A stretch of DNA of 24,448 bases from Dictyoglomus sp. NZ13-RE01. Its GTDB lineage: Bacteria > Dictyoglomota > Dictyoglomia > Dictyoglomales > Dictyoglomaceae. The stretch covers positions 1-24,448 of the forward strand of contig NIRF01000018.1 of assembly GCA_002878375.1 (NCBI GenBank), in the 5' to 3' direction. Shown here one piece after another: positions 10,083-19,935 of the stretch (the stretch's first letter is position 1; each line of letters opens with the position of its first letter). Under the pieces are notes generated by a model that had not been told where the DNA came from, did no database searches, and saw only the letters and a program-made list of their open reading frames with translations. The position numbers and the translations under genes are program-made.

Positions 10083-11087
10083 ATGAAATTCAGAATAACC
10101 TTAGCTATCACATTTTTCTTATTGGTCTCCTTAATTCCCCTTCTTGGTGCAAGTGAATGGAAACCAACAAAACCTATAACGATTATTGTTCCTTGGAGTG
10201 CTGGTGGATCAACAGATTTAACAACAAGGACATTAGCAGCTGAGATGGAGAAATATTTAGGTCAAAAAATAATTGTTGTAAATACTCCAGGCGCTGCGGG
10301 TTCTATTGGTACTAAAAATGCTTGGGATGCTCCACACGACGGTTATACTTGGACCGCCAATGCTATAGTTGATATAGTAAAATATCCAGTTTTAGGATAT
10401 CTAAATGTGACTCATAGGGATTGGGCACATTTCTTAGTTATCTATGCGCCAAATGTAATTGCTGTAAGACCTGACTCTAAATATAAAAATTTAAAAGATC
10501 TTATTGAAGATATGAAAGCAAGACCAGGAGAAGTTAAAGTTGCAACTGCAGGAGTAGGAAGTGCTGGACATATAGCTGCAGAAACTCTTGCTATGTATTT
10601 TGGAATAAAATATAGGCACGTTCCTTATGCAGGTGGAAACCCTGCAGTAATCGCTACTGTTAGTGGAGAAGCAGATGTTACTACTCAACTTTCTATGGAA
10701 GTAGCAGAAATGTTGAGAGCTGGAAAATTAAAAGCATTAGCAGTAATGGGTAAAACATCTATTGAAATTACAAGATATGGAAGAATTCCCTCTATAAGAA
10801 CATATTATAGAGATTTTCCTGAGACTGGAGCATATTTTGGGATATTTATTCCCAAAGATGTGCCTGCGGAAGTTTTGTCTGCTGTTACAAAAGCTTTTGT
10901 GAAAGCAGCAGATTCTCCTGCAGTTAAGAAGTATGCAGAAGATAATGGACTTGTTGCAGTTAAAATTTATGGTAAAAAAGCGGACGAGCTTGCCGAACAG
11001 GTTGCATCAAGAATATGTTGGATGCTTTATGATCAAGGAATAGCTCCAATTTCTCCTGAAAAATTCAATATTTTAAGAAGTCAATAA
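10083..11087 (+). CDS. tctC: Tripartite tricarboxylate transporter substrate-binding protein
   Basis: This is the extracytoplasmic binding protein (Bug/TctC family) that captures a carboxylated solute for the TctA-TctB membrane pair. It has 334 residues, with a signal peptide at about 1-23 (Lys/Arg start, hydrophobic core, then GAS before EWKP). Family-typical segments follow in order: KPITIIVPWSAGGSTDLTTR near 30-50, the NTPGAAGSIGT loop near 73-83, HVPYAGGNPAV near 180, and a closing domain. AAAGGAGGG is its ribosome site. It is first in a long operon and is followed by a partial terminator hairpin, which fits the usual need for more binding protein than transporter. The solute is unknown; these proteins bind citrate, other dicarboxylates, sugar acids or aromatic acids. 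Confidence 0.93.
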   Translation: MKFRITLAITFFLLVSLIPLLGASEWKPTKPITIIVPWSAGGSTDLTTRTLAAEMEKYLGQKIIVVNTPGAAGSIGTKNAWDAPHDGYTWTANAIVDIVKYPVLGYLNVTHRDWAHFLVIYAPNVIAVRPDSKYKNLKDLIEDMKARPGEVKVATAGVGSAGHIAAETLAMYFGIKYRHVPYAGGNPAVIATVSGEADVTTQLSMEVAEMLRAGKLKALAVMGKTSIEITRYGRIPSIRTYYRDFPETGAYFGIFIPKDVPAEVLSAVTKAFVKAADSPAVKKYAEDNGLVAVKIYGKKADELAEQVASRICWMLYDQGIAPISPEKFNILRSQ

Positions 11088-11094
11088 TTTACTG

Positions 11095-11119
11095 AGGGGG
11101 GTTATTGAGCCCCCTTTGT
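11095..11119 (+). terminator. Intercistronic terminator-like hairpin between tctC and tctB
   Basis: AGGGGG (11095-11100), a nine-base loop and CCCCCT (11110-11115) are followed by TTGTT. The stem is GC-rich but short and the U-tract is interrupted, so partial termination, or 3'-end protection of tctC mRNA, is likely rather than a full stop. Confidence 0.6.
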
Positions 11120-11135
11120 TAGGGAGGTTAATTAA

Positions 11136-11516
11136 ATGAGAAAAGCAGATTTTCTAACTGGAATATTTTTAATTATTCTCTCTATATTTTTTATAGTTGA
11201 AGCCTTTAAAATGCCTGTTGATCCTGCCTATGGTATTTATGCTTTTCCAGGAATTACTCCTATATTTTTAGCGAGTATTCTCTTAATTTTATCAATTTAT
11301 TTAGTAATAAGATCAAAAGTTAATTTTATTGAGATCTTGAGGGACATGTCTATAAATAAAATGAGAAATAAAGAATTCCAAAATCTCATTTTATCAGGAA
11401 TATTAATGCTTATCTATGTTTTTCTACTGAAAAAAATCCCGTTTTATATTTTGACTTCTCTATTTATTTTTGCCTTTTCGTATATCTTTTATAGAAAAAG
11501 CCTATTTTTCTACTAA
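11136..11516 (+). CDS. tctB: Tripartite tricarboxylate transporter small membrane subunit, frameshifted
   Basis: TctB is the small four-helix membrane subunit that pairs with TctA. The first 121 residues fit the family: KADFLTGIFLIILS at the start, GIYAFPGITPIFLA near 32-46, and a polar middle loop followed by helices. After the AAAAA run at 11495-11499 the frame changes to an unrelated short tail and stops at 11516. The remaining family C-terminus continues in the -1 frame to a stop at 11585-11587, so the intact protein would be about 150 residues. The gene is therefore mutated, mis-sequenced by one A, or read by frameshifting. ATG 11136 has a GGGAGG site. Confidence 0.85.
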   Translation: MRKADFLTGIFLIILSIFFIVEAFKMPVDPAYGIYAFPGITPIFLASILLILSIYLVIRSKVNFIEILRDMSINKMRNKEFQNLILSGILMLIYVFLLKKIPFYILTSLFIFAFSYIFYRKSLFFY

Positions 11517-11587
11517 TCCTTTCTGGAGTTGTTACTTTCGCAATAATTATGCTTTTTTCAAAATTATTTTTAATTCCTATGCCATAA
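11498..11587 (+). other. Out-of-frame C-terminal part of tctB
   Basis: Read in the -1 frame from AAG at 11498, this encodes KKPIFLLILSGVVTFAII and then a final helix ending SKLFLIPMP and a stop. That is the expected last helix and Pro-rich terminus of a TctB protein. It ends 17 bases before tctA. It shows that the break in tctB is a single-base frame change, not an early natural stop. Confidence 0.8.
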
Positions 11588-11604
11588 GAAAGGAGTAATT
11601 TTTT

Positions 11605-13089
11605 ATGGAAGGTATAATATACCTTTTAAATACATTAATAAATTATCTTACAAATCCTTCGATACTTTTTAATTGTGCTTGGGCTACACTTCTTGGAATT
11701 ATTATTGGAGCCTTGCCAGGACTTACAGCTACTATGGGAATTGCTCTTCTTACTGGATTAACCTTTGGTTTTCCATCAGAACTTGCTATAGTAATGCTTG
11801 TTTGCATATATGTTAGTGCAATATATGGGGGAAGTAGATCCGCCATTCTAATAAATATTCCAGGAACTCCAGCAAACGCTGCCACTACTTTGGATGGTTA
11901 TCCTTTGGCAAGATCAGGAAGGGCGGGGGAAGCATTAACTACTGCAACTATTGCATCTGCTATAGGCTCTTTTATTGGTGTTCTTTCTATATTTATCTTT
12001 GCTCCTCTTTTAGGACAGATAGCTTTAAAATTTGGTTCTTGGGAGTTCGCTTGGCTTGCAATATTTGGAATAACCATTTGTGGAACTCTTACTGCACCTA
12101 AAGATCCACTAAAAGGTTGGATAGCTGGATTTTTAGGACTTTTATTAGCTCAGATTGGTATGGAACCAATTGGAGCTTATCCCAGATATTCTTTTGGCTT
12201 TTTACAACTTATGGGAGGTATAGCATTAATTCCTGTATTAGTTGGGGTTTACGGGATACCAGAAATTTTAACAAGTATGAAAGAGTATGGTAAAAGAGAA
12301 ATAATACATGAGATTAAAGGGAGATCAATTCCTAACATATCTATCCTTATTAAAAATTGGGTAAATATTATAAGATCTGGATTGATCAGTGTTTTGATAG
12401 GTGTAATTCCAGGAGTAGGAGAGGACGTTGCTGCATGGGTATCTTATGATCTTGCTAAGAGGGCAAGTAAAGAAAAAGATAAATTTGGAAAAGGCTCCAT
12501 AGAAGGATTAATTGCAGCAGAAACTGGAAATAATGCATGTGTTGGAGGAGCTATAATTCCTGTCTTAACTTTGGCTGTTCCTGGAAGTGCACCAGCAGCA
12601 GTTTTATTAGCAGCGATGTGGCTTCATGGATTAAGACCTGGTCCACTTTTACCTATTGAAAATCCTATGTTTATTTATAAAACAGCTGCTATGATGCTTT
12701 TTGCTACAATTTTAATGACCATATTTGGTTTACTTTTAACAAGACTCTTCCTTAAGATACTAACTATTGATAATGCAATTTTAATGCCTATTATTTTTGT
12801 TCTTTGTGTTTTAGGTGTTTATGCAATAAACGTAAGAATATTTGATATTTTTGTAATGCTAATCTTTGGAATAATAGGATATTTTATGAGAATTATGGAA
12901 TATCCAGCTGCACCATTTGTTTTGGGTTTCATTCTTGGACCTATGGCGGATGAAAATATTAGAAGAGCATTGATCATTACAAAAGGAGACATAACTCCAT
13001 TTTTCACAAGACCAATATGTATTGTACTTATAGTTTTAACTCTTTTATCTGCTCTTGTGAGATATAGACCAAAAGTGAAGGAGGGATAA
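11605..13089 (+). CDS. tctA: Tripartite tricarboxylate transporter large membrane subunit
   Basis: TctA is the 12-helix transport subunit that moves a carboxylated solute into the cell with ions. At 494 residues it has the normal length. The family's two mirrored motifs are present: GIIIGALPGLTATMG at 31-45 and VLIGVIPGVGEDVAAW near 262-278. The hallmark INIPGTPANAATTLDGYPLARSG segment lies near 83-105. AGAAAGGAG is its ribosome site. It follows the frameshifted tctB and is followed four bases later by a dehydrogenase gene. Its intact frame suggests the transporter was recently, or still is, under selection. Confidence 0.94.
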   Translation: MEGIIYLLNTLINYLTNPSILFNCAWATLLGIIIGALPGLTATMGIALLTGLTFGFPSELAIVMLVCIYVSAIYGGSRSAILINIPGTPANAATTLDGYPLARSGRAGEALTTATIASAIGSFIGVLSIFIFAPLLGQIALKFGSWEFAWLAIFGITICGTLTAPKDPLKGWIAGFLGLLLAQIGMEPIGAYPRYSFGFLQLMGGIALIPVLVGVYGIPEILTSMKEYGKREIIHEIKGRSIPNISILIKNWVNIIRSGLISVLIGVIPGVGEDVAAWVSYDLAKRASKEKDKFGKGSIEGLIAAETGNNACVGGAIIPVLTLAVPGSAPAAVLLAAMWLHGLRPGPLLPIENPMFIYKTAAMMLFATILMTIFGLLLTRLFLKILTIDNAILMPIIFVLCVLGVYAINVRIFDIFVMLIFGIIGYFMRIMEYPAAPFVLGFILGPMADENIRRALIITKGDITPFFTRPICIVLIVLTLLSALVRYRPKVKEG

Positions 13090-13092
13090 AAA

Positions 13093-14271
13093 TTGGATAA
13101 AGTTAAAGTTGGTATAGTAGGAACAGGTTTTGTTGCGAATATTCATATGGCATCATATAGGGAAAATTTTGCTTTTTGCGAAGTTGTTGGTGTATGTGCA
13201 AGAAATTATGAGCATGCAAAAGGTTTTGCAGAAAAGTATAACATAAAAAAGGTTTATAAAGATTATCATGAAATGTTAGAAGATAAGGATATTGATGTTA
13301 TAGATATATGTACACCCACTAATGTTCATATGGATATTATATTAGAATCTGCAAAAGCCCATAAACATATTATATGTGAAAAACCTCTAACAGGATATTT
13401 TGGGGAAGATACCGAAAAAGAGGATGTAGGGAATATATCGAAAAGATATATGTGGGAGAAGGTTAAGGAGAAAGTAAATATTATAGAAAAAACTTTAGAA
13501 GGAAACAATGTGAAATTCATGTATGCAGAAAATTTTGTTTACTCCCCTGTAGTTTCCAAAATAAAAAGGATGATAGAGGCTTCTAAAAGTCCAATTATTG
13601 AAATAAGAGCAGAAGAGAGCCATTCAGGATCCCATGCGGAATATTCAAGAAGATGGAGGACTTCTGGTGGAGGAAGTCTCTTAAGAATGGGATCTCATCC
13701 TGTTGGTGTAGTTCTTCACTTAAAAGCCTTTGAGGGAAGACTTAGACATGGAAGACCAATAAAACCTATATATGTGGTAGGAGAAGTTGGGAATTTAACG
13801 AAAATATCAGAGGTTCAAAGGGAAGAAAAGCATTACATTTTTACTAATTGGAGAGATGTTGAGGATTGGTCTTGCCTTATAATAACTTTTGAGGATAATA
13901 GTAAGGCAACAATTTTTGCTTCTGATACAAGTCTTGGTGGTGTCAAAAATCTTGTCTATGTTTATACTTCTCAGGGAGTTATATATGGTAATATAACTCC
14001 AAATAGTACGATATTAGCATATGCTCCATCTCCTGATACGTGGAAGGATGAATATATAGCAGAAAAAATTGAGACAAAAGCGGGTTGGAATTTCCCATTC
14101 CCAGATGAAGATTGGATTCGTGGTTACCCACAAGAAATAAGAGGTTTTATGGAGTGTGTAATTCACAATAGGGAACCAATTTCAGATTTTGAATTAGCAA
14201 AAGATACTGTGAATGTAATTTATGCAGGTTATACTTCAGCTGAAGAAGGCGTGAGAGTAAGGGTTTTGTAA
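13093..14271 (+). CDS. Gfo/Idh/MocA-family NAD(P)-dependent dehydrogenase
   Basis: This is a cytosolic oxidoreductase acting on a sugar, inositol or sugar acid. It has an N-terminal Rossmann fold with GIVGTGFVA at 7-15, the CEKPL motif at 95-99 whose lysine is catalytic, and the GSHPVG segment near 200-205 with the expected histidine. It has 392 residues, slightly long, with a charged insertion just after the EKP motif (about 102-132). The start is TTG 13093, supported by the GGAGGGATA site at the end of tctA and the lack of a better codon. The position directly after the transporter suggests an early step on the imported compound. Substrate and cofactor cannot be read. Confidence 0.9.
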   Translation: MDKVKVGIVGTGFVANIHMASYRENFAFCEVVGVCARNYEHAKGFAEKYNIKKVYKDYHEMLEDKDIDVIDICTPTNVHMDIILESAKAHKHIICEKPLTGYFGEDTEKEDVGNISKRYMWEKVKEKVNIIEKTLEGNNVKFMYAENFVYSPVVSKIKRMIEASKSPIIEIRAEESHSGSHAEYSRRWRTSGGGSLLRMGSHPVGVVLHLKAFEGRLRHGRPIKPIYVVGEVGNLTKISEVQREEKHYIFTNWRDVEDWSCLIITFEDNSKATIFASDTSLGGVKNLVYVYTSQGVIYGNITPNSTILAYAPSPDTWKDEYIAEKIETKAGWNFPFPDEDWIRGYPQEIRGFMECVIHNREPISDFELAKDTVNVIYAGYTSAEEGVRVRVL

Positions 14272-14284
14272 AGGAGGAATGTGC

Positions 14285-15238
14285 ATGGATGTTATTTCCT
14301 ATGGGGAGGTAATGCTAAGGTTTACTCCTGAGAGATTTAGAACTTTTGTTGCAAGCAATTCTTGGAATGTTGAAGTGGGCGGAACTGAAGCGAATGTACT
14401 TATAAACTTGTCTCTTCTTGGTGTATCAACATCTTTTATTACCTTTTTTCCTGACAACTTTTTAGGCTATAAAGCCTATTGCGAATTAAGAAAATATGGG
14501 GTAGGGGTGGAGAAAACGAGGCTTGTTTCTTATGGAAGAATGGGGATGTATTTTGTAGAGTTTCATCACAGGAGTTTTGGTATTCAAGTAATTTATGATA
14601 GGAAAGATTCTGCTTTTTCTCTTACTCCTCTTTCGGAAGAGGATTTAGAATACTTTAGGAGAGCCAAACTTATACACCTTACAGGTATAACTCCCAGTTT
14701 AAGTGATGTATGCAGAGATAATCAGATTAAGATATTAAAGTCTAAGGGGGGAAATCAGAAGATATCATTTGATGTGAATTTTAGGAAGAAGCTTTGGGAG
14801 GAGGAAGATTTTAAGAGATATCTAAAGGAGGTAATGGATTACATAGACATTTTATTTATAAAGAAAGAGGATTACAATATTCTTTTTTCTAATGAAGAAG
14901 ACGAGGAAAAAATTCTTCATAATTTACAGAAAGATTTTGGAGAAGAAAAGATATTTGTTTTGACAAAGGGAGAAGAAGGAGCGACAGCTATTTATAAAGG
15001 TGAAATGTGTTCTGTCTCTTCTTATAATACTGATATAGTAGATCGTATAGGGGCAGGAGATGCTTTTACTGCTGGTTTTCTATATGGGTATTTAAATAAT
15101 AAAGACTTGAAGGAGTGTGTTGATTTGGGTAACATTTTGGCGAGTGTTAAAATGAGTGTATTTGGGGACTTTATCTCGGTTGATAGAAGAACTTTGGAGC
15201 AATTTTTAGAAAATAGTATAAGGAGCGTAGAGAGATGA
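14285..15238 (+). CDS. PfkB-family sugar kinase, 2-keto-3-deoxygluconate-kinase-like
   Basis: This enzyme phosphorylates a sugar or keto-sugar acid with ATP. It has 317 residues and starts with the SYGEVMLRFTPE pattern usual in 2-keto-3-deoxygluconate (KDG) kinases. It then shows GGTEANV near 32, SFDVNFRKKLW near 161-171 (the KDG/fructokinase-type D-N-R-LW motif), and the second PfkB signature DRIGAGDAFTAG at 253-264 with catalytic base D259. ATG 14285 is preferred to ATG 14279, which lies only a base or so from the AAAGGAGG site. It overlaps the IclR gene by four bases. A KDG role fits a sugar-acid pathway, but no aldolase is in the window. Confidence 0.88.
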   Translation: MDVISYGEVMLRFTPERFRTFVASNSWNVEVGGTEANVLINLSLLGVSTSFITFFPDNFLGYKAYCELRKYGVGVEKTRLVSYGRMGMYFVEFHHRSFGIQVIYDRKDSAFSLTPLSEEDLEYFRRAKLIHLTGITPSLSDVCRDNQIKILKSKGGNQKISFDVNFRKKLWEEEDFKRYLKEVMDYIDILFIKKEDYNILFSNEEDEEKILHNLQKDFGEEKIFVLTKGEEGATAIYKGEMCSVSSYNTDIVDRIGAGDAFTAGFLYGYLNNKDLKECVDLGNILASVKMSVFGDFISVDRRTLEQFLENSIRSVER

Positions 15239-15999
15239 AGAATAAAGTAGGAATTGGTTCTGCAGCTCAAACCTTAGAGATTTTGGAAATTTTAATCTTA
15301 GCAGGAAGAGAGTTATCCCTTAAGGAGATAGCTCAAAAGACTAATCTTCATATTTCCACTGTCCATAGATATCTTTCTACTTTGATTGATAAGGGTTATG
15401 TAAGGAAATTACCATCGGGGAATTATAAGCCTGGATTTAGAATTCTTGAGCTTTCTAATTATGTTCTCCAAAGCTTAGATATTAGGGAAATTGCCCATCC
15501 CTTTCTTGTAGAACTAATGAATAATACAAAGCAAACAGTTCATCTTACTATAAAGGACGGTTATGAAGGGGTCTATATAGATAAAGTGGAGGGTCCAGAA
15601 ACTCTACCTATGATGTCAAGAATAGGAATGAGGATGCCTCTTTATTCTACAAGTTTTGGAAAGGTACTACTTGCTTATAGTAGTGAAGAGGAAATTGAAG
15701 ATTATTTAAGACATGTGCCTCTGAAACCAAGAACTAAGAATACTATAACAGATCCAGAAAAGTTAAAGGAGGAGCTTAGGAAGGTAAGAACCTTAGGTTA
15801 TGCTTTTGATGATGAGGAGAATGAAATAGGGATTAGATGCTTAGGAGTACCCATATTTGATTATGCTGGAAAGGTTATAGCAGCTATTTCCATATCAGGT
15901 TACTTTCTGAATTTTGAGGGGGAGAGGAAAGAAAACTTGATTTTGGAGCTTAAGAAAACAGGGGAAAATATAAGTAATGTTTTAAGAAGCAGAAGATAG
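15235..15999 (+). CDS. IclR-family transcriptional regulator
   Basis: This is a DNA-binding regulator of 254 residues. A winged helix-turn-helix occupies about 8-70 (LSLKEIAQKTNLHISTVHRY, then a wing DKGYVRK), and the IclR effector domain fills about 80-250, with RIGMRMPLYSTSFGKVLLAY and ISISGYFLNF as typical segments. Family members such as KdgR and IclR bind small organic or sugar acids and control catabolic genes. It overlaps the kinase gene (ATGA at 15235). It probably controls this operon, possibly through the palindrome at 9974-9995 before tctC; that target is inference. Confidence 0.93.
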   Translation: MKNKVGIGSAAQTLEILEILILAGRELSLKEIAQKTNLHISTVHRYLSTLIDKGYVRKLPSGNYKPGFRILELSNYVLQSLDIREIAHPFLVELMNNTKQTVHLTIKDGYEGVYIDKVEGPETLPMMSRIGMRMPLYSTSFGKVLLAYSSEEEIEDYLRHVPLKPRTKNTITDPEKLKEELRKVRTLGYAFDDEENEIGIRCLGVPIFDYAGKVIAAISISGYFLNFEGERKENLILELKKTGENISNVLRSRR

Positions 16000-16009
16000 G
16001 AGGTTTATT

Positions 16010-17158
16010 ATGGACTTATCCACCAATTATGTTGGCTTAAGGCTTAAAAATCCTATTATTGTTGCTTCATCGGGGCTTACGGAAAATCTTAAGAATATGA
16101 AAAAAGTGGAAGAAAATGGAGCAGGTGCCTTAGTAGTAAAATCTCTATTTGAAGAGGAGGTATGTAGGGTTTCTCCTACTCCCAGGTTTGAGATAATCTC
16201 AAGAACTATGGGACCTCTTCGTTCTCAAACCTTATACTCCTTTGAGCAAGCAAGTCCCTTTTCTCCAGAAGAGTATTTTAAAGAAGTTAGTAAGGCTTTG
16301 AGTATTTTATCAATTCCTGTAATTCCCAGTATTAATTGTATAACCAATGAGGGATGGCTTAAGTACTCTAAAATGGCACAGGAGATTAATGCTCCTGCAT
16401 TAGAGCTGAATGTTTCTTGTCCTCATGCTTCCATCTCTTTTAGGGGACAGGACGTAGATGATACAATTATTAATACAGCAAAACTTGTTAGGGAAAATGT
16501 TGACATACCCTTGATTGTAAAATTGCCTATGCAACTTTCTTCTCCTCTTGCTGTTGCTAAAGAGTTAGAAAGGATAGGTATAAATGGGATTGTAATGTTC
16601 AACAGGTTGACAGGTCTTGATATAGATCTGGAAAAAGAAAAGCCTATTATGCATGGAGGATATGCCGGGCATGGAGGACCATGGGCTCTAAATTATACAT
16701 TGAGATGGATATCCACATCCTCTCCTCATTTGAATATCTCCATTTCCGCATCAGGTGGCGTGGGAAGCGGAGATGATATTGTAAAGTATATCATGGTTGG
16801 GGCGGATGCAGTGCAAGTCTGTAGTATCATTTATCTTATGGGGTATGAAATAATTTCCTCCCTTTTAAATGGAGTAAAAAGATTTATGGAAAATAAAGGT
16901 TACACATCCTTAGAAGATTTTAGAGGGAAGGTTTCAGGGAAAGCTATTCTTGGAAATTATGAGATTGATAGAAGGCATTATTTAAAAGCTCAGATTGATG
17001 AAAACTTATGTAATGCTTGTGGAATATGCAAAAAAGTATGCATCTATGATGCTCCAATTCCAAAAGATGGAAAATATTTTATAACTGAGCTTTGTGATGG
17101 ATGTGGTCTATGTCCTAAATTATGTCCTCAGAAAGCAATTACAATGGTAAAAAGATAA
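16010..17158 (+). CDS. Dihydroorotate-dehydrogenase-like FMN enzyme fused to a 2[4Fe-4S] ferredoxin
   Basis: This 382-residue protein resembles the PreA subunit of bacterial NAD-dependent dihydropyrimidine dehydrogenase. The FMN barrel covers about 1-300, with GLRLKNPIIVASSGLTEN at the start, ELNVSCPHA, the lysine of LIVKLP, and the flavin-phosphate segment ISASGGVGSGDD. From about residue 332, CNACGICKKVC and CDGCGLCPKLCP form two four-cysteine clusters. It should pass electrons between a flavin-bound substrate and a partner. It is followed after 15 bases by a second flavoprotein, not by the usual PreT partner. With no pyrimidine genes nearby, a role in the acid pathway is more likely than pyrimidine breakdown. 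Confidence 0.88.
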   Translation: MDLSTNYVGLRLKNPIIVASSGLTENLKNMKKVEENGAGALVVKSLFEEEVCRVSPTPRFEIISRTMGPLRSQTLYSFEQASPFSPEEYFKEVSKALSILSIPVIPSINCITNEGWLKYSKMAQEINAPALELNVSCPHASISFRGQDVDDTIINTAKLVRENVDIPLIVKLPMQLSSPLAVAKELERIGINGIVMFNRLTGLDIDLEKEKPIMHGGYAGHGGPWALNYTLRWISTSSPHLNISISASGGVGSGDDIVKYIMVGADAVQVCSIIYLMGYEIISSLLNGVKRFMENKGYTSLEDFRGKVSGKAILGNYEIDRRHYLKAQIDENLCNACGICKKVCIYDAPIPKDGKYFITELCDGCGLCPKLCPQKAITMVKR

Positions 17159-17173
17159 GAAAGGATTGAGGCT

Positions 17174-18853
17174 ATGAAGATTATTAAGAGAGATTTAGTG
17201 ATTATTGGTGGTGGTTCTGCAGGAATGCGTTCTGCTCTTTCCGCCTATGAAAAAGATCCTACTCTTTCTATTCTTCTAATTGCAAAGAAGCCTTTAGGGG
17301 TTGGAGGAGTAACTGCACAAGCTTTTTCTGACAGAATGGCTTTTCATGCTACTTTATCTTATACTCTCCCTCCTCAAAAAAACTATTTGTATCATGCATT
17401 AGATATTTACAAGATTGGAGGAGAGGTCTCAGACTATAATTTGGCAGAAATATTGGCTAAGAATAGCGAGTCCGCTATTCAGTATTTGATATCTATTGGA
17501 GTTCCCTTTGTTAGAGATAAAGAGGGAAAGATAGATCAATTTTTAACAGATGGCTCTATCTATCCAAGAGCTTGTTATGTAGGCCCTAATACTGCTATTG
17601 AGATAGCAAAGGCACTACATAGAAAAATAAAGGAAACAAAGATTGAAGTTATGGAGAATGTAATGGCTTATGATTTTATATTAAAAGGAAATAGAGCTGT
17701 AGCCTTAAAAGCCATAGATACAAGTACCCAAGAAATTCTTGTTATTCAGGCAAAAGCCTTTATCTTGGCTGCAGGTGGGGCGGGAGAAATATATCATCAA
17801 AATGTTTTTACCTCAGAAATGACAGGCGATGGTTATGCAATGGCTTTGCGAGCTGGGGCAGAATTGGTAAATATGGAGTTTATGCAGATTGGTTTATGTC
17901 ATCCCAACATATTATTTGCTGAGTCAGGTAGTATATTTAGGGCTTTACCTAAAATTGTAGATGAGAATGGAAAAGAATTTTTACTGGATTATTTAGAGGG
18001 AGAAGATAGAGAAAATTTATGTGCTTTAGAATTTAAGAAGGGAGCTCATTGGCCTGTTTCTTATGAATCTCCAACAAAGGTTATTGATCTTGCCATTTAT
18101 TATCATACCCTTTTAGGACATAAAGTTTATATGGATTTCAACAATAATCCTTCCTACCTGATTTTTGAACATATCCCCGATGAGATACTTCGTTGGAGCG
18201 AGAAAGTAGGGAAGGAGATTTTTAAAGACACAAAACCTTTTGAAAGATTAAGAATTATTAATCCTACTATTATTGAATGGCTGAAAAAATACGGTATAGA
18301 TCTTGAAAAGGATAGACTTCCTGTACAAAATGCTCTACAGCACTTCCAAGGAGGAGTAACTCAAGTTTTTGGAAAGATTGCAGGGGAGAGTGCTATAGAG
18401 TTTGCTAAAAATAAAGATTTCGTTGAAATTTCGGAAGAAGATTTAAAGGAAGAAATTAAAACTATCGGAATTCCAGCGGAAAAAGCAAGGAAGAGAATAA
18501 AAGATATCATGTCGAGTTATGGTTTCTTGGTAAGAATTGAGGAAGGAATAAATAAAGGACTTATAGAGCTTTCTGAGATTAGAAAAGAAGGTATTGCTTT
18601 AGATGAACATGGACCTTCTTATTACTTAGAAACCTTAAATATGTTGGATGTGGCGGAAGTTATTTTGACTGCTATTAAGATTAGAGATGAGAGTAGAGGT
18701 CCCCATTTAAGATTCATAAAGTTTGAGCCCCCCGTCATGGAATTTTTACCTAAGAAAGAGAACTGGAATAAGTATATTGTGATAAAGAAAAAGAATGGCA
18801 AGTTAAGTTATGAGATTAGAGAGCCTGTAAGACCAAGGGAGGATATAAAATGA
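17174..18853 (+). CDS. Fumarate-reductase/AprA-type FAD protein with an internal gap
   Basis: This is a flavoprotein of the FrdA/SdhA/AprA/NadB superfamily. It shows the FAD Rossmann motif GGGSAG at 12-17, AKAFILAAGGAGEIY, and TGDGYAMALRAGAELVNMEF as in the family, and a C-terminal helical domain with KIRDESRGPHLR. After QHFQGGV (389-395) the sequence jumps straight to TQVFGKIAGE. Family members carry about 35-40 residues here, including the GL.A.GE and HGANRLG.NS motifs that bind FAD and supply a catalytic arginine. The reading frame is kept. The protein may be inactive, or specialised. It lies between the ferredoxin-type FMN protein and a zinc dehydrogenase gene, which it overlaps by four bases. 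Confidence 0.85.
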   Translation: MKIIKRDLVIIGGGSAGMRSALSAYEKDPTLSILLIAKKPLGVGGVTAQAFSDRMAFHATLSYTLPPQKNYLYHALDIYKIGGEVSDYNLAEILAKNSESAIQYLISIGVPFVRDKEGKIDQFLTDGSIYPRACYVGPNTAIEIAKALHRKIKETKIEVMENVMAYDFILKGNRAVALKAIDTSTQEILVIQAKAFILAAGGAGEIYHQNVFTSEMTGDGYAMALRAGAELVNMEFMQIGLCHPNILFAESGSIFRALPKIVDENGKEFLLDYLEGEDRENLCALEFKKGAHWPVSYESPTKVIDLAIYYHTLLGHKVYMDFNNNPSYLIFEHIPDEILRWSEKVGKEIFKDTKPFERLRIINPTIIEWLKKYGIDLEKDRLPVQNALQHFQGGVTQVFGKIAGESAIEFAKNKDFVEISEEDLKEEIKTIGIPAEKARKRIKDIMSSYGFLVRIEEGINKGLIELSEIRKEGIALDEHGPSYYLETLNMLDVAEVILTAIKIRDESRGPHLRFIKFEPPVMEFLPKKENWNKYIVIKKKNGKLSYEIREPVRPREDIK

Positions 18854-19935
18854 AATCTGGAGCAATGGTCCTTGAAGAATTTAATAAACCTCTTATTTGG
18901 AGGGAGATAGAAATTCCTGAAATTCCAAAGGGAGGGGTTTTAGTTAGGATGGTTTCCTCTGGTGTGTGTGGTTCTGATGTGCATATGTGGGAAGGCAAAG
19001 ATCCTCGTGTTCCCTTACCAATAATTTTAGGACATGAGGGAGTTGGAGAGATTGTTTATATAAATGGAGAGAAGAAAGATTTAAATGGAGAAGAATTAAA
19101 AGAAAAAGATTTAATTACATGGAATAGAGGGATTGTATGTGGTAAATGTTTTTATTGTAAGGTGGCAAAGGAAGAATATTTATGTCCTAATAGAAAAATT
19201 TATGGAATTAATAGGAGTCTAAAGGAATATCCATATTTATCAGGAGCATATAGTGAATATATGATATTGGATCCAGAAACTGAGATAATCAGGTTGCCTG
19301 AAAATGTGGATCCTGATGTAGCAGTTATAGCAGGTTGTTCTGGGGCAACCGCCATGCATGCTTTTGACGAAATAAAAGAAACCCTTGTGGGAAAAACCGT
19401 GGTAGTGCAGGGGGCAGGTCCTTTAGGAATTTTTGCACTATCCCTTGCTCGTTTTCACGGGGCTGAAAATCTATTGGTTATTGCAGGAAGCGTAGAAAGA
19501 CTTGAGATAGCTAAAAATATTGGCATTGATGTAATTCTGAATAGAAGGGAGACTACTCCTGAGGAAAGAAAGAGAAAAGTTATGGAAGTCACCCATGGAA
19601 GAGGTGCGGATATAGTTATAGAAGCTACCGGAGATAGTAAGGCTCTTTTAGAAGGAATAAGTCTTTTAAGAAAAGGAGGATTATATTTAATAGTAGGTGT
19701 TGCTACACCTCAAGAAAGTATCCCTCTTGATATATATGAAATAGCATCAAAGAATCTAACGATAAAAGGGATATGGGTAAGTTCAGGAAGACATGTATAT
19801 CAGGCAGTATCTTTTGTAGCAAAAAATCAGAATATTTTTGAGTCTATTATTACTCATCGTCTTCCTCTTAGGGAAGCAAATTATGCTCTTCAGCTTATGA
19901 GAGAGAGAAAAGCCCTTAAGGTAGTATTAAAGTAA
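18850..19935 (+). CDS. Zinc-dependent alcohol/polyol dehydrogenase (MDR family)
   Basis: This is a medium-chain NAD(P)-dependent dehydrogenase, 361 residues. Catalytic zinc ligands are visible at C40 (GVCGSDVH), H62-E63 (LGHEG) and C163. Structural zinc cysteines are C97, C100, C103 and C112. The cofactor motif is GAGPLG at 189-194. It is closest in style to sorbitol- or threonine-type enzymes. The second Rossmann strand ends IAGSVERL, without the aspartate typical of strict NAD enzymes. It starts inside the stop of the flavoprotein gene (ATGA) and runs nine bases into the 3' end of the rhamnulokinase gene on the other strand. It probably oxidises an alcohol group in the same pathway. Confidence 0.9.
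   Translation: MKSGAMVLEEFNKPLIWREIEIPEIPKGGVLVRMVSSGVCGSDVHMWEGKDPRVPLPIILGHEGVGEIVYINGEKKDLNGEELKEKDLITWNRGIVCGKCFYCKVAKEEYLCPNRKIYGINRSLKEYPYLSGAYSEYMILDPETEIIRLPENVDPDVAVIAGCSGATAMHAFDEIKETLVGKTVVVQGAGPLGIFALSLARFHGAENLLVIAGSVERLEIAKNIGIDVILNRRETTPEERKRKVMEVTHGRGADIVIEATGDSKALLEGISLLRKGGLYLIVGVATPQESIPLDIYEIASKNLTIKGIWVSSGRHVYQAVSFVAKNQNIFESIITHRLPLREANYALQLMRERKALKVVLK

Follow-up and report, generated by a model that had tools for sequence, protein, structure and literature searches.

FrdA, SdhA and L-aspartate oxidase (NadB) share a common fold in which an FAD-binding domain (PF00890) is followed by a C-terminal domain (PF02910). In the FrdA fold, a block containing the motifs GE and HGANR holds the diphosphate and the ribityl side of FAD. 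Arginine 390 of E. coli FrdA forms a hydrogen bond to the substrate carboxylate and is required for covalent flavinylation (PMC5773532, PMC9557727). The flavoprotein that we describe here is encoded in a window of 24,448 nucleotides (the whole stretch of DNA that was analysed) from Dictyoglomus sp. NZ13-RE01, a hot-spring bacterium. It has the domain order and fold of these enzymes, and the top Foldseek matches are 1kf6, 1nek and 1knp, but it scores far below their NCBIfam cut-offs and lacks the GE/HGANR block. The features on which the argument rests are the following.

10083-13089, forward strand: tripartite-tricarboxylate-type uptake system TctC-TctB-TctA (ORFs, identified by reading the sequence and not by family scan).
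13093-15999, forward strand: Gfo/Idh-type oxidoreductase, PfkB-type sugar kinase and IclR-type regulator (identified in the same way).
16010-17158, forward strand: PreA-like, DHOD-like FMN protein with two C-terminal [4Fe-4S] motifs (PF01180, 1.1e-27; Fer4 domains at 327-379).
17174-18853, forward strand: FAD flavoprotein ORF of the fumarate reductase/succinate dehydrogenase type with a 36-residue deletion (559 aa; PF00890, PF02910).
17192-17224, forward strand: N-terminal dinucleotide-binding motif DLVIIGGGSAG (GxGxxG), kept (sequence and alignment).
18338-18358, forward strand: QHFQGGV block, kept, directly 5' of the deletion, with His390 corresponding to FrdA H355 (alignment).
18358/18359, forward strand: deletion junction, with 108 bp (36 codons) missing that in relatives read KI.E.A.T...GLFA.GE.AGGQHGANRPGGNSLLD (codon alignment).
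18359-18388, forward strand: TQVFGKIAGE block, kept, directly 3' of the deletion (alignment).
18850-19935, forward strand: Zn-dependent alcohol/threonine-dehydrogenase-like protein, whose start ATG overlaps the flavoprotein TGA.

The domain scan places the flavoprotein in the superfamily, with PF00890 at residues 7-240 (1.3e-28) and PF02910 at residues 439-546 (2.1e-7), both above their gathering cut-offs and in the expected order. The PF00890 match spans only profile positions 1-253 of 414, and the C-terminal FAD-domain block, GLxAxGE...HGANRxGxNS with the catalytic arginine of FrdA R390, is absent. No NCBIfam equivalog cut-off was reached in a scan of the window protein alone: the best score was for TfrA (200.6 bits, cut-off 718), NadB gave 150.9 bits (cut-off 452.75), FrdA gave 110.8 bits (cut-off 932.7), and SdhA was likewise far below its threshold. 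With scores this low, "fumarate reductase" names the fold and not the reaction. The genes beside it encode the PreA-like protein and the Zn-dehydrogenase; none encodes an FrdB/SdhB-type iron-sulfur subunit, and no adjacent gene for a membrane anchor was seen.

The first-pass annotation had described an in-frame jump from QHFQGGV to TQVFGKIAGE, across a site where the family would normally hold about 35-40 residues, and had offered a clean deletion of 100-120 bases as one explanation. Our alignments bear this out. Across the junction the 559-residue ORF reads ...LPVQNALQHFQGGV/TQVFGKIAGESA..., with the codons GGA GGA GTA / ACT CAA GTT in frame. All eight of the close orthologues compared, six from Dictyoglomaceae and two from Thermotogota, have exactly 108 nt (36 codons) at this point. 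On either side of it the codons align cleanly, and the sole ambiguity of sequence at the junction is a microhomology of at most 1 bp, a figure taken from an alignment anchored at the correct GGAGGAGTA. A deletion between direct repeats was rejected because the junction has no repeat. We also looked for the motifs elsewhere in the protein, and for homologues relative to which it has no gap, and found neither. The missing segment has no copy elsewhere in the NZ13-RE01 genome: the better hits there, on contig C6 (49% identity) and contig C1 (29%), fall in different and distantly related flavoproteins. Nor does any HGANRPGG-coding stretch occur within the window. These negative searches led us to reject relocation of the motif within the protein or the genome. 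The flavoprotein gene is single-copy, no second copy being found in the NZ13-RE01 genome.

Alignment with the closest homologues, proposed by the first-pass annotation as a check together with structure modelling, shows that the gap belongs to this genome alone among those compared. Each of seven Dictyoglomaceae genomes, the window genome included, has one orthologue; the other six are 76-77% identical to the window protein up to residue 396 and 61-73% identical from residue 396 onward, where the alignments pick up again past about 35 extra residues. Outside the gap, intact orthologues such as those of D. thermophilum (L042:5558-7342) and of two Thermotogota loci (L026, L027) are 62-75% identical to it and, unlike it, keep the 36-residue GE...HGANRPGGNS block. 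A regular expression for the pattern GG[IV]...HG[AS][ND]R.GGN...QVFG matched 28 of 28 homologue loci, which include archaea, Clostridia and Thermotogota and some of which are duplicates of one genome. A close homologue occurs in 11 of 103 Thermotogota genomes, and all 11 keep the 36-residue piece; more distant bacterial and archaeal relatives likewise have exactly 36 residues here, and the segment is near-invariant across bacteria and archaea. Both of the other genomes assigned to this GTDB genus are among those that lack the gap. As no relative in the family, in the Thermotogota or further away has it, we reject a subfamily trait, and the earlier suggestion of a different use of the fold finds no support as a trait of the lineage.

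The gene order around the flavoprotein is TctC-TctB-TctA, Gfo/Idh, PfkB, IclR, PreA-like DHOD protein with two [4Fe-4S] motifs, flavoprotein and Zn-dehydrogenase. The stop codon of the flavoprotein and the start codon of the Zn-dehydrogenase overlap in an ATGA at 18850-18853, which suggests that the two are likely to be translationally coupled. Similar clusters occur in Thermotogota (L026, L027), and the intact Dictyoglomaceae and Thermotogota orthologues lie in a similar operon with a PreA-like protein and a Zn-dehydrogenase. The PreA-like gene adjoins the flavoprotein in four of the six other Dictyoglomaceae as well as in L026 and L027; the Zn-dehydrogenase lies 3' of the flavoprotein in L039-L042, L044, L026 and L027; and the TctC-TctB-TctA order upstream is repeated in L039, L026 and L027. 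The PreA-like FMN/Fe-S protein is likely to be the redox partner of the flavoprotein. It shares a DHOD-like barrel and two C-terminal 4Fe-4S motifs with the PreA-type subunit of NAD-dependent dihydropyrimidine dehydrogenase, but scores 173.6 bits, short of the 335-bit PreA cut-off, and, unlike that system, has no PreT gene beside it. The first-pass annotation had suggested that a lineage with a different use of the fold might rely on this neighbouring FMN/ferredoxin protein. The neighbour is real and conserved in the operon, but it does not explain the gap, because it also stands beside intact flavoproteins. In another genome (G033, L045:1439-4015), an 858-residue PreA-like protein whose gene adjoins flavoprotein and Zn-dehydrogenase genes carries, as we read its sequence, a module resembling a GltD/PreT-type pyridine-nucleotide oxidoreductase between the DHOD barrel and the 4Fe-4S motifs. 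This fused module hints that electron transfer in such operons may be linked to NAD(P)H.

The composition of the operon varies among related genomes. The PfkB-IclR-PreA-like genes and the flavoprotein-Zn-dehydrogenase pair are together in the window and in genus g2, whereas in G001 and G002 they are on different contigs (L050 and L051 for the former, L039 and L040 for the latter). In G002, which is of the same genus, the Gfo/Idh gene orthologous to window positions 13093-14271 is reduced to a 137-residue C-terminal open frame (L040:6734-7219, minus strand) directly upstream of an intact flavoprotein, and the Tct transporter is absent from the locus. A close Tct orthologue is missing in other Dictyoglomaceae, with only a distant TctA (42-44% identity), encoded elsewhere, in D. 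thermophilum and D. turgidum. A literature search for the operon or its substrate returned nothing specific.

We consider it probable that a recent in-frame deletion of 108 bp arose on the NZ13-RE01 lineage and disabled the flavoprotein. Such a deletion would remove the FAD-holding strand and loop (GLFA.GE.AGGQHGANRPGGNS) together with the arginine equivalent to FrdA R390. In alignment, the deleted block matches positions 363-399 of the E. coli FrdA chain. The glutamate of the GE strand, the GGN loop and, as the first-pass annotation had claimed, the counterpart of R390 (chain residue R391, mature R390 in the numbering of the literature) all lie within it; the counterpart of FrdA H355, which neighbours the block, is kept. 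AlphaFold2 models of the window protein and of an intact relative, both built on shallow alignments (12-13 sequences), differ in mean pLDDT (70.0 against 76.1), in pTM (0.75 against 0.83) and in their match to E. coli FrdA 1kf6 (TM 0.61 and rmsd 8.7 Å against 0.75 and 5.3 Å). The window model is weakest around the FAD pocket, in blocks covering residues 41-140 (pLDDT 30-47). This drop in model confidence and in FrdA match is supportive of a loss, though not decisive. Taken together, the conservation of the block, the published roles of R390 and the poorer model argue strongly that the deletion would disable the enzyme, and the shortened protein is predicted not to bind FAD in a catalytically useful way. 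The otherwise intact ORF is a counterpoint, as it would also fit an assembly error or a still-functional protein, and the deletion is known from one genome of its species. Being in frame, the deletion would spare translation of the Zn-dehydrogenase gene that overlaps the flavoprotein gene. The flavoprotein would belong to an accessory catabolic operon of a carboxylate transporter, Gfo/Idh dehydrogenase, sugar kinase, PreA-like protein and Zn-dehydrogenase, and since related genomes, too, have lost parts of this operon or have them in broken form, its loss is plausibly tolerated.

The evolution of the rest of the gene suggests that the event is young. When three operon neighbours are used to fix the topology, the window branch makes up 27.6% of the flavoprotein's amino-acid tree length, comparable to its share in those neighbours (PreA-like 24.7%, IclR 35.0%, PfkB 25.2%). 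Values of dN are 0.16-0.20 against a dS of about 1.6, and the 559 codons contain neither a stop nor a frameshift. Normal constraint therefore acted on the gene for almost the whole time since it diverged, and the gap is recent, or an error, or tolerated.

The explanation that survives next best, though we regard it as unlikely, is an artefact of assembly or population, in which all or most cells carry an intact gene and 108 bp were dropped from the IDBA-UD consensus, for example through a chimeric read or a bubble-merged minor variant. The normal evolution of the remaining gene, like that of an intact one, agrees with this. So does the origin of the record, a draft of 34 contigs and 1,927,012 bp (Illumina MiSeq, IDBA-UD) binned from a New Zealand metagenomic enrichment and reassembled (PMC5854780). 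Our survey of gaps against D. thermophilum, which took in about 22% of the NZ13-RE01 genome (365 orthologue pairs, 121,689 aligned residues), bears on both sides. Several frameshifted genes were present in the sample, so lesions or errors do occur in the record. At L067 (G000:C1:276182-278236), two adjoining genes carry frameshifts when compared with D. thermophilum, with two frameshifts in one of the genes, and these may be either pseudogenes or local assembly errors. In the 365 pairs, the flavoprotein gap was nevertheless the sole one of at least 12 residues whose two flanks, at 87% and 73% identity over 15 residues, are strongly conserved, which argues against both an accident of alignment and a kind of event that is common in this assembly. 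A generally artefact-ridden assembly was rejected, as the sample held frameshifts but no second clean interior gap. That the loss is exactly in frame also speaks against an artefact. A de Bruijn assembler requires k-mers that span a junction; at a junction with no repeat on which the path could collapse, this favours reads that truly crossed it. A real deletion, carried by at least some of the population, is therefore our preferred reading rather than an artefact.

It is improbable that the short protein folds and works, holding FAD in some other way or serving the PreA-like FMN/Fe-S partner as a scaffold without catalytic activity. The intact, in-frame ORF, its unaccelerated rate and the retention of the N-terminal Rossmann motif, the QHFQGG block and the C-terminal domain would suit such a variant. 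However, few parts of the family are conserved as well as the lost block, which also holds the R390 counterpart. No relative does without this block, and the predicted model is degraded around the FAD site. We give slightly less credence still to the specific form of this idea, in which selection maintains an FrdA-type flavoprotein that lacks the GE/HGANR block, binds FAD in a new manner or does without it, and acts with its PreA-like FMN/Fe-S partner. An old deletion in a long-decaying pseudogene is very improbable and is not supported. A key motif is gone and relatives have lost other pieces of the operon, but the frame is open throughout, the window branch has no different a share of amino-acid change than in the neighbouring genes, and dN is low.

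In summary, a recent loss-of-function allele is the most likely explanation, a draft artefact the next, and a working variant or an old pseudogene the least likely. The gap in NZ13-RE01 is thus most likely not a new kind of enzyme, but a recent loss in a single strain or an artefact of the draft. If real, it would be a clean but ordinary natural loss-of-function allele in an accessory catabolic operon, with the caution that automatic annotation would still label the deleted product a fumarate reductase flavoprotein. The intact operon, with its carboxylate transporter and its PreA-like, FrdA-like and Zn-dehydrogenase proteins, is common to Dictyoglomus and some Thermotogota, and is arguably of more interest than the gap itself.
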